The notes under the pieces were generated by a model. The model ran no database searches, was not told where the DNA came from, and worked only from the letters and a program-made list of their open reading frames with translations. DNA of 32,198 nt from Clostridia bacterium (GTDB lineage: Bacteria > Bacillota > Clostridia > UMGS1883): contig JAFQQD010000064.1 in assembly GCA_017411435.1 (NCBI GenBank), forward strand, positions 1-32,198. Direction: 5' to 3'. The translations under genes were made by a program, and so were the position numbers. Of the stretch, positions 29,264-31,954 are shown piece by piece; positions within the stretch are counted from its first letter, which is position 1, and every line of letters starts with the position of its first letter.

Positions 29264-30025
29264 ATGAAAAACAAAATAATTGATTTCATACATTTGCAGG
29301 GCATTGAAAAATGCGGTGTTTCAAAATATGAAGGCAAAAGTGCACTCGTATGCCTTTTTCCATATTACTGCGGTGACAGGGACGGGAATTTATCTCTTTA
29401 TGCGCGCGGATATGACTACCATGGAGTTATAAAAGAAAAGTTATCCTTAGTTGTAGATTATATAAAGGGGCTGTCTCCCGATTCGGAATGTGAAATTTTT
29501 GCCGATATAGGTCCTGAGATAGACCGTCGTCTTGCCTATAATGCAGGGCTTGGCTTTTACGGAAAAAACCGTATGCTTATAAATGATGACTTCGGCAGTT
29601 ACTTTTTCATCGGGTATATTCTGACAGATTTACCACTTGAAGAAGATACTCCTGTTGATAAAAGCTGTATGGGATGTAACAGATGTGTTGACGCGTGTGT
29701 CGGCGGAGCACTTTCTGATGGTTTTTGTATTGAAAAATGCGCCTCGCACATAAGCCAGAAAAAAGGCTACCTCACAGAAAGTGAAATCGCCATACTAAAA
29801 AAATCGGGACTTGTATTTGGTTGCGATATGTGTCAGCGGGTTTGCCCGCATAACAACATCACTCCAAAGCCAATGAAGGAATTTACCGAGGATATGATAG
29901 ACTTTCTTACAAAAGAAGATATAGAAAACCTTTCAAACAAAGAATTTTTGTCAAAATACAAAAACCGCGCCTTTTCATGGCGCGGTAAGAATGTGCTACT
30001 GCGGAATATCAAGTTTTTTATTTAG
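29264..30025 (+). CDS. queG: Short QueG-like iron-sulfur protein (epoxyqueuosine reductase family)
   Basis: A 253-residue cytoplasmic protein, shorter than usual QueG (over 300). It carries YARGYDYHGVIKEKL, FADIGPEIDRR with the probable catalytic aspartate (D81), and AGLGFYGKNRMLI, then a two-cluster ferredoxin part with C135, C138, C141, C145 and C187, C190, C194 (CDMCQRVCPHN). QueG uses a cobalamin cofactor to reduce epoxyqueuosine in tRNA. About 40 residues at the N-terminus and the C-terminal HEAT repeats of long QueG are absent. The start at 29264 has GAAGGAGGT nine bases upstream. Its last eight bases overlap the convergent lysR gene. Confidence 0.75.
   Translation: MKNKIIDFIHLQGIEKCGVSKYEGKSALVCLFPYYCGDRDGNLSLYARGYDYHGVIKEKLSLVVDYIKGLSPDSECEIFADIGPEIDRRLAYNAGLGFYGKNRMLINDDFGSYFFIGYILTDLPLEEDTPVDKSCMGCNRCVDACVGGALSDGFCIEKCASHISQKKGYLTESEIAILKKSGLVFGCDMCQRVCPHNNITPKPMKEFTEDMIDFLTKEDIENLSNKEFLSKYKNRAFSWRGKNVLLRNIKFFI
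29964..29986 (-). terminator. Terminator of the LysR gene inside the QueG-like coding region
   Basis: Eight GC-rich perfect pairs, ACCGCGCC (29964-29971) with GGCGCGGT (29979-29986), loop of seven, followed on the minus strand by TTTTGTATTTT. It lies about 30 bases past the lysR stop and within the last codons of the converging gene. Confidence 0.7.
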
Positions 30026-30971
30026 TTTCCGCTACAACTTCTTTTGCCGTAGTTATAAATTTTTTCATAGCACTGGTCAAGTACCGGTGCTTTTTATATA
30101 CAATATGAAGAATTCTCGAAGAATGCTGTTGAGCAATGTTATAAAGAACCGTGTTTCTGCCAAACTCACTGAATTTGAAGAAAGTGTCTGTTATAAATCC
30201 GGCTCCCATTCCTGACTCAACAAGCGAATAAGATATGTTTAACTGGTCAACATTGAAAATCACATTGGGTGTTATTTTCCAATTTCCAAACATAGCAGTC
30301 GCACGATCATACATATCGTTTCCCTTTTTAAGCATAATAAAAGGCTCGTTTGAAAAAGCATTTATCGGCACAGGCGGCACATCATCAATATTAATATCGC
30401 CGTTATAAATATTTTCCGGATATATCTGCCTGTCTGAAAATTTATCGTTTATTTTCCAATGAGAAGGAACGCAAAGTAATATCCGCTCGGAAAGAAGCTG
30501 ACTTCCCACATAGATATCCATAGTTTCATCATAACTGTCGATAATGACATCAATTTCTTCGTTATCCATCATTTCACTTAGTTTGCCTGAATTTGCTTCC
30601 ATAAGAGTAACCTTTATTTTAGGATACATGTTGGTAAATCTGTTTATTATTTTAGGAAGAACATAGGAACATAGATAATTCGTACCCCCTACTGTGATTT
30701 CTCCCGTTTCAAGATTATATATATCGTGAATTCTGTTTTCAAAGTCTTTTTCGGCACGCATAATCTTCTCTGCAGTACGAATGTATTCAACACCTATTTC
30801 AGTAGGTGTTATATGTACTCCGTTTCTTTCAAAAAGAGGTGCGCCCACCTTGTTTTCAATGTTTTTAACGGCTGCACTAAGCGATGGCTGAGATATGAAA
30901 AGTTTCTTAGCCGCACGGGTAAAACTTTTTTCCGTATAAACAGCATAGATATATTCGTATTTTGAAAACAT
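30018..30971 (-). CDS. LysR-family transcription regulator
   Basis: A 317-residue regulator. The N-terminal 60 residues are the winged helix-turn-helix (KSFTRAAKKLFISQPSLSAAVKNIE), then a linker helix, and about 90-300 is the periplasmic-binding-protein-like effector domain (ITVGGTNYLCSYVLPKII at its start). The ATG at 30971 has AGGAG seven bases upstream; an earlier in-frame ATG at 31142 would cross the divergent gene. It diverges from the YitT-like gene across a 37-bp palindrome that also fits a T-N11-A LysR box, so it probably controls that gene and itself. The inducer is not predictable. Confidence 0.93.
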   Translation of the reverse strand: MFSKYEYIYAVYTEKSFTRAAKKLFISQPSLSAAVKNIENKVGAPLFERNGVHITPTEIGVEYIRTAEKIMRAEKDFENRIHDIYNLETGEITVGGTNYLCSYVLPKIINRFTNMYPKIKVTLMEANSGKLSEMMDNEEIDVIIDSYDETMDIYVGSQLLSERILLCVPSHWKINDKFSDRQIYPENIYNGDINIDDVPPVPINAFSNEPFIMLKKGNDMYDRATAMFGNWKITPNVIFNVDQLNISYSLVESGMGAGFITDTFFKFSEFGRNTVLYNIAQQHSSRILHIVYKKHRYLTSAMKKFITTAKEVVAETK

Positions 30972-31020
30972 CTCTATTCTCCTATAGTTTTTTTCTATAT
31001 AAAATATATTTTGAAAGTAT

Positions 31021-31057
31021 TTGACTATATTATAACACTCGATTATAATGTAGTCAA
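31021..31057. promoter_or_regulatory. 37-bp palindrome with two overlapping divergent promoters
   Basis: Fifteen-base arms (31021-31035 and 31043-31057, one mismatch) flank seven central bases. On the plus strand TTGACT (31021-31026), 17 bases, TATAAT (31044-31049) points to the YitT-like gene. On the minus strand TTGACT (31052-31057), 17 bases, TATAAT (31029-31034) points to lysR. Both -35 boxes are the ends of the dyad and both -10 boxes lie inside it. A TAA-N7-TTA box sits at the centre, fitting T-N11-A. Confidence 0.85.
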
Positions 31058-31078
31058 TATGTGTCAGGAGAGTAAAAA

Positions 31079-31954
31079 ATGCAGCACACCAAAAAAACCT
31101 TGATTTATATTTCGATAGTGATTCTTGCTTCGCTATCGGCAATTAATTACATAATTTTCATTTTTCCGAATGGTTTTGCCTCTTCGGGGCTTGACGGAAT
31201 ATGCACAATGATACAGGACACCTTTAATGTAAATATGGGATACCTTTCACTTCTTTTGAATCTCCCTCTTATACTGAGTGCATATATTTATCTTAACCGC
31301 GACTTTGCAATCAGAACAACTTTGTACATAGTTTCTTTTTCGCTTGCGGTTATTTTCCTTAAGGACTCCTCCCTCTGTTCTTACTGCTACATAACAGAAA
31401 GCGGTTCCAGTATAATTCTTGCTCCCATTGTCGCAGGTGCCATAAGAGGGATTATTTATTCTTTTACGCTGAAAGCAAACTGTTGCAGCGGCGGAATAGA
31501 TATTGTAGCGGCAGTTGTAAAAAAGAAGATGCCACATCTTAATCTTATGAATATTATATTCTTTATTAATATGACTATTGCTGCAAGTTCATATTTCGTA
31601 TACGCAATGAGATTCGACCCTGTTATCTGCAGTATTATTTATTCGTTTATAACAAGTAGCACAAGCAAAAAAATTCAGGCCGATGAAAAAGAAACTGTTA
31701 AGTTCGAAATTATTACATCCCACGCACAGACTCTCTATGAAAAAATTTCTTCTGAATTACATCTTCCTGCAACTATAATGGAAGCCCACGGTGCTTATTC
31801 AGGAGAAAACAAAGAAATGATAATATGCGTAACAGACAAATCGGTTGCTCCTCTTGTGGAAAAAATTCTCACAAAATTTCCTGACTGTGTTGTTTTCAAA
31901 ACAGTTGTTGATAGTTCTCAAATGATAGTAAACTACAGCAAATCAGGCGTTTGA
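31079..31954 (+). CDS. YitT-family membrane protein (DUF161 and DUF2179)
   Basis: A 291-residue protein with about five to six membrane segments in the first 200 residues (FPNGFASSGLDGICTMIQ near residue 30, GAIRGIIYSFTLKANCCSGG near 120) and a cytoplasmic C-terminal DUF2179-like domain (about 205-291, with EIITSHAQTLYEKI and GAYSGENKEMIICV). YitT proteins are common in Bacillota; the transported substance is not established. AGGAG is well placed before the ATG. It is the divergent partner of the LysR gene and ends about 75 bases before a terminator. Confidence 0.88.
   Translation: MQHTKKTLIYISIVILASLSAINYIIFIFPNGFASSGLDGICTMIQDTFNVNMGYLSLLLNLPLILSAYIYLNRDFAIRTTLYIVSFSLAVIFLKDSSLCSYCYITESGSSIILAPIVAGAIRGIIYSFTLKANCCSGGIDIVAAVVKKKMPHLNLMNIIFFINMTIAASSYFVYAMRFDPVICSIIYSFITSSTSKKIQADEKETVKFEIITSHAQTLYEKISSELHLPATIMEAHGAYSGENKEMIICVTDKSVAPLVEKILTKFPDCVVFKTVVDSSQMIVNYSKSGV

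Follow-up and report, generated by a model that had tools for sequence, protein, structure and literature searches.

In E. coli, the bioA and bioB genes are read from face-to-face overlapping promoters that lie within one palindrome, and this palindrome is the operator of the repressor BirA. Overlapping promoters are also established for LysR-type regulators and their divergent targets, including metR/metE, ilvY/ilvC and gcvA/gcvB of E. coli and lysG/lysE of M. tuberculosis (PMC5002191, PMC5648196). These cases run against one premise of an earlier, sequence-only reading of the locus described here, namely that LysR pairs usually place separate promoters side by side. A different arrangement is found in the bidirectional promoters described by Warman, Grainger and colleagues, in which one -10 element is shared and the starts lie 7–25 bp apart (PMC10268837).

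A palindrome with two promoter readings

The window, by which we mean the whole stretch of 32,198 nucleotides that was analysed, carries a LysR-type regulator gene and a divergent gene for a YitT-family membrane protein, arranged as follows.

30018–30971, minus strand: LysR-type regulator gene (P0002, 317 aa, stop codon included), with Pfam HTH_1 and LysR_substrate
30978–30983, minus strand: likely lysR ribosome-binding site, AGGAGA, read from the sequence and abutting box 1
30984–30998, unstranded: LTTR-type box 1, ATAGTTTTTTTCTAT (ATAG-N7-CTAT), in the lysR leader just upstream of the lysR ribosome site
31014–31028, unstranded: LTTR-type box 2, AAAGTATTTGACTAT (AAAG-N7-CTAT), covering the yitT -35 and the predicted lysR start
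31021–31057, unstranded: 37-bp pseudo-palindrome, read as two superimposed, opposite promoters of the sigma-A/sigma-70 type from sequence, genome count, shuffles and relatives
31021–31049, plus strand: predicted yitT promoter, -35 TTGACT at 31021–31026, -10 TATAAT at 31044–31049, predicted start ~31056
31029–31057, minus strand: predicted lysR promoter, -35 TTGACT at 31057–31052, -10 TATAAT at 31034–31029, predicted start ~31022
31066–31070, plus strand: likely yitT ribosome-binding site, AGGAG, read from the sequence
31079–31954, plus strand: YitT-family membrane protein gene (P0001, 291 aa, stop codon included), with Pfam YitT_membrane and DUF2179

The regulator has both a helix-turn-helix and a substrate-binding domain (HTH_1, 2e-17; LysR_substrate, 1e-30). 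The segment at 31021–31057 reads TTGACTATATTATAACACTCGATTATAATGTAGTCAA and its reverse complement TTGACTACATTATAATCGAGTGTTATAATATAGTCAA, with the layout TTGACTA-y-ATTATAA, N7, TTATAAT-r-TAGTCAA and arms that match at 14 of 15 positions. TTGACT, 17 bases and TATAAT are legible on its plus and minus strands alike, as the sequence-only reading had claimed, and genome count and shuffles agree. The 2.0 Mb genome holds 20 copies of TTGACT-N17-TATAAT, of which the two at 31021–31057 are the sole coinciding pair. A relaxed mirror pattern, TTGA....A...TA.........TA...T....TCAA, is matched once in the window, and 100 dinucleotide shuffles yielded no match.

Wherever two identical promoters of opposite orientation have equal spacers, the sequence is pseudo-palindromic around the point midway between them; the palindrome therefore exists because the promoters overlap and adds no information beyond that overlap. 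Simultaneous occupancy of the yitT and lysR promoters should be physically excluded, and on anatomical grounds a mutually exclusive pair is well supported. The full overlap from which the earlier reading had deduced the exclusion of a second polymerase is retained in every divergent lysR–yitT relative examined; the pair may act as an either/or switch.

Conservation in relatives and two promoter registers

Scanning with the YitT protein found 12 loci at 48–64% identity, nine of them with a divergent LysR orthologue (48–61% identical), and a class-wide genome search yielded further loci, among them two new lysR–yitT pairs, L051 and L054 (L054 is stored on the opposite strand, and its pair is therefore divergent). 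Including the window, this gives 12 distinct lysR–yitT pairs, all chosen by protein and none by promoter; the alignment also shows a thirteenth, L104, that was found by the mirror pattern. The relatives are all draft genomes, largely metagenome-assembled.

The lysR–yitT pairs align without gaps from box 1 through the dyad. TTGA-17-TAnnnT is present on both the yitT and the lysR strand in 12 of 12, so that both dyad promoters and both 17-base spacers, the features whose persistence the sequence-only reading had proposed to check, are kept throughout; relatives that retain the gene pair and have lost one promoter number 0 of 12. Invariant across the aligned pairs are TTGA, TA and the final T of the yitT promoter, and TTGA and TAnnnT of the lysR promoter. 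All six columns specific to the lysR promoter (dyad positions 13–14, TA, and 34–37, TCAA) are invariant, and the variable columns, spacer 15–23, 30–33 and 38 onward, lie outside the boxes and the target promoter. Set against 0 of ~55 background columns, 6 of 6 corresponds to a nominal 2e-8, which is not a true probability, the sequences being related.

The mirror site was not found in the yitT relatives that have no lysR neighbour (L039, L047 and L049), and so goes with the lysR–yitT pair rather than with yitT by itself. Searches of the window's family and order turned up no other close yitT orthologue, and further family and order searches added none: apart from the window genome (G000, contig C58), none of the other 27 genomes of the order carries one at E <= 1e-40. 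Restriction of the pair to the window genome within the order suggests horizontal transfer; a misbinned contig is less likely.

Two of the relatives show rearrangements or decay near the promoters. In L043, a 1234-bp element (L043:2745–3978) lies between the intact dyad and yitT and separates promoter from gene; its terminal inverted repeats are near-identical (ACCTATAACTttATTTTCTGTG), and a short direct repeat, TTAATGG, flanks it. In L113/L104 (genome G374, contig C86), the leader matches that of L112/L054 up to the ribosome site and is divergent beyond it; intact mirror promoters stand before a yitT that looks truncated (a 112-aa open frame).

The LysR protein and a 19-row profile, used as queries, recovered homologues 34–45% identical beside other divergent genes, encoding aspartase, class I/II aminotransferase, Asp/Glu-type racemase, ATP-dependent PEPCK and TauE. 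Thirteen of these wider divergent pairs were read, which together with the 12 lysR–yitT pairs makes 25. The lysR strand carries TTGA-17-TAnnnT in 24 of the 25, offset from the target promoter by 8 bp (13 pairs) or 3 bp (11 pairs); when everything is shuffled with the other elements held fixed, chance predicts 0.57 of 25. In 11 of the 13 wider pairs the site takes a 32-bp form, TTGATTATA-N14-TATAATCAA, with a 17-bp-spacer promoter on each strand. Here the lysR promoter is shifted by 5 bp (offset 3 vs 8), its -35 and -10 moving jointly between registers with the 17 bp kept. Two of the 11 offset-3 pairs, L122 and L131, have a degenerate target -35 (TAGATT and TTTATT, respectively) and an intact lysR promoter. 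An aspartase pair, L121, has offset 8, and the PEPCK pair, L123, has a weaker TTGTAA-17-TATTAT at offset 6. Since offset 8 occurs, on a maximum-likelihood tree, in the yitT clade and separately in L121 in another clade, more than one change of register has probably taken place, both promoters being retained.

Three of four homologues without a divergent partner keep the lysR promoter alone: L117, L118 and L119, whose upstream neighbour is not divergent but points the same way as lysR, have TTGCAA/TTGCAC-17-TATAAT and no facing promoter (L118 and L119 are near-identical). In L130, where lysR stands in tandem downstream of a YitT-family gene, no promoter was recognised between the two genes. This tandem arrangement (L130:2294–3172), with a lysR of the same subfamily, shows that the YitT–LysR link holds even where the order is not divergent. 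Separately, the aspartase-like gene divergent from lysR at L126:1307–1456 ends after ~50 aa and may be a pseudogene or reflect a sequencing frameshift.

The same geometry is found beyond this subfamily. In 391 genomes of the class, a hand tally gave 74 sites for the relaxed mirror pattern against 31 for the reversed pattern, a modest excess, and several mirror-pattern sites fall between close divergent genes. AraC-type regulators facing rhamnosidase-like (GH106) genes have it in three genomes (L099, L101 and L103; the Pfam GH106 match is to L099 only, with L101 and L103 assigned by similar N-termini). These loci were found by the mirror pattern, and so show its occurrence, not its conservation.

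Probable regulator sites, a candidate circuit and other explanations

The ATAG and CTAT of box 1 are invariant in all lysR–yitT pairs, and box 2, which differs from box 1 by one base (AAAG vs ATAG), is nearly invariant, with a single mismatch in each of L040 and L043; the distance between the boxes is exactly 30 bp in every pair. Their centres lie at -65 (box 1) and -35 (box 2) of the yitT start, predicted as 7 bases after the yitT -10. LTTR recognition and activation sites at divergent promoters have been reported at -65 and -35 (PMC11602165), and conserved T-N11-A boxes thus stand at about these positions here. Relative to the predicted lysR start the centres fall near +32 and +2, so that a bound tetramer would block lysR. 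The regulator's own binding sites are likely to be boxes 1 and 2, beside the palindrome and not at its centre. Box 2 overlaps the yitT -35, so its constraint is not cleanly separable from that on the promoter. Box 1 is less constant in the relatives that face aspartase or aminotransferase genes, where its sequence and exact position both drift.

We consider it very probable, on the sequence comparisons above, that the palindrome is a by-product of two genuine promoters in mirror orientation on the same DNA, which serve a classic LysR-type circuit, and that it is not an operator. From the anatomy and conservation that the sequences establish we infer binding, activation, exclusivity in the cell and an effector as follows. 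A LysR tetramer would hold box 1 (-65), its recognition site; once in the inducing state it would also occupy box 2, the activation site (-35), recruiting RNA polymerase to yitT. LysR would lower its own promoter by lying across the lysR start, and a polymerase already loaded on yitT would clash with use of the lysR promoter; when the activating signal is absent, lysR transcription would resume. The regulator would thereby activate its target and at the same time keep its own expression under tight negative autoregulation; the two-box layout fits the classic LTTR activator/autorepressor. The list of targets hints faintly that the effector is related to aspartate or C4 acids. In favour of our explanation, bidirectional promoters of E. 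coli do show RNA polymerase competition once one of the directions is activated; against it, basal activity at those tested was too low for competition (PMC12825309).

An alternative is that the 37-bp palindrome is an operator, for LysR or some other regulator, acting through a central T-N11-A, and that one promoter reading is incidental. LTTR sites are palindromes, and the window matches both T-N11-A and ATAA-N7-TTAT at 31032–31046. The central T-N11-A pointed out in the sequence-only reading (31033/31045) is literally present, but it amounts to no more than the TA that is invariant in each -10 element. Dyad pairs 1-37 to 4-34, 9-29, 13-25 and 14-24, the key hexamer positions, are symmetric in all 12 lysR–yitT pairs, whereas 15-23, 16-22, 17-21 and 18-20 are symmetric in 5, 1, 2 and 2 of 12, the last three thus in just one or two; the hexamer positions alone stay symmetric. 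In relatives with the 3-bp offset the dyad is 32 bp long and centred elsewhere, and other invariant LTTR-like boxes lie outside the palindrome. With the dyad unconserved outside the hexamers and conserved LTTR-type boxes at 30984–30998 and 31014–31028, the proposal that operator symmetry and promoter symmetry are the same object is not supported, and we regard a palindromic operator as improbable. An LTTR operator at the dyad centre was rejected, inner symmetry being lost in the relatives beyond the promoter hexamers. A third box formed by a dyad within the spacer, such as TAGCAC..GTGCTA in L124, was also rejected, since neighbouring centres are at least as symmetric as the dyad centre.

A shade less probable again is that the yitT promoter alone is real, the mirror reading arising from A+T richness and the constraints of box 2 and the start site, with lysR transcribed from elsewhere. 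Part of the mirror -10 is indeed dictated by box 2 and the -35, above all in the pairs with the 3-bp offset, but the 0.57 expected with those elements fixed is far from the 24 of 25 observed, TCAA or CAA is invariant amid variable columns, and homologues without a divergent target keep just the lysR-directed promoter. We give least weight, and very little, to a bidirectional promoter of the Warman and Grainger type, a single shared -10 firing both ways, which would likewise entail opposite starts on the same DNA and mutual exclusion. Known cases share the -10 and have starts 7–25 bp apart, whereas the locus has two separate -10 elements, near-consensus -35 elements and predicted starts ~34 bp apart; with the -10 elements separate, at 31029–31034 and 31044–31049, this candidate was discarded as having the wrong geometry.

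Beyond the preferred explanation, two genuine mirror-image promoters in a LysR-type circuit, a more ambitious reading is possible, with the balance tilted against it. The promoters may be register-locked at 8 or 3 bp, offsets that differ by half a helical turn, as a built-in device in which polymerase competition set by the regulator gives exclusive, low-noise expression. Such a design would survive changes of target, would have arisen or switched register more than once, and would be used by other families, as in the AraC regulators paired with GH106-like rhamnosidases in three genomes. Overlapping divergent promoters have been known singly, and whether an overlap is selected or incidental is seldom testable. 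One LysR subfamily supplies ~25 natural pairs with varied targets and two discrete offsets, plus partnerless relatives, a set on which the part that polymerase competition plays in autoregulation can be tested directly. For the uncharacterised YitT membrane family, the tie to a LysR subfamily that faces genes of aspartate and related C4/amino-acid metabolism is a lead to function.

Comparison with described systems

A search of the open literature on YitT with LysR, GltC/gltAB and bioA/bioB found nothing decisive. Likeness to the metR/metE, ilvY/ilvC, gcvA/gcvB and lysG/lysE pairs is close: a LysR-type regulator divergent from its target, overlapping promoters, inverted-repeat sites, and target activation with negative autoregulation, the circuit that we propose may operate here. 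With bidirectional promoters the locus shares pseudo-symmetric promoter DNA that polymerase can occupy in only one orientation at any moment (PMC12825309, PMC10268837), but it has two full promoters with ~34 or 39 bp between predicted starts. The palindrome, unlike that of bioA/bioB, appears to consist of promoters only. The difference from the LysR-type pairs seems to lie in equal 17-bp spacers and two main registers across a subfamily with changing targets; the mirror geometry, the two registers and their subfamily-wide conservation seem to be what is new.
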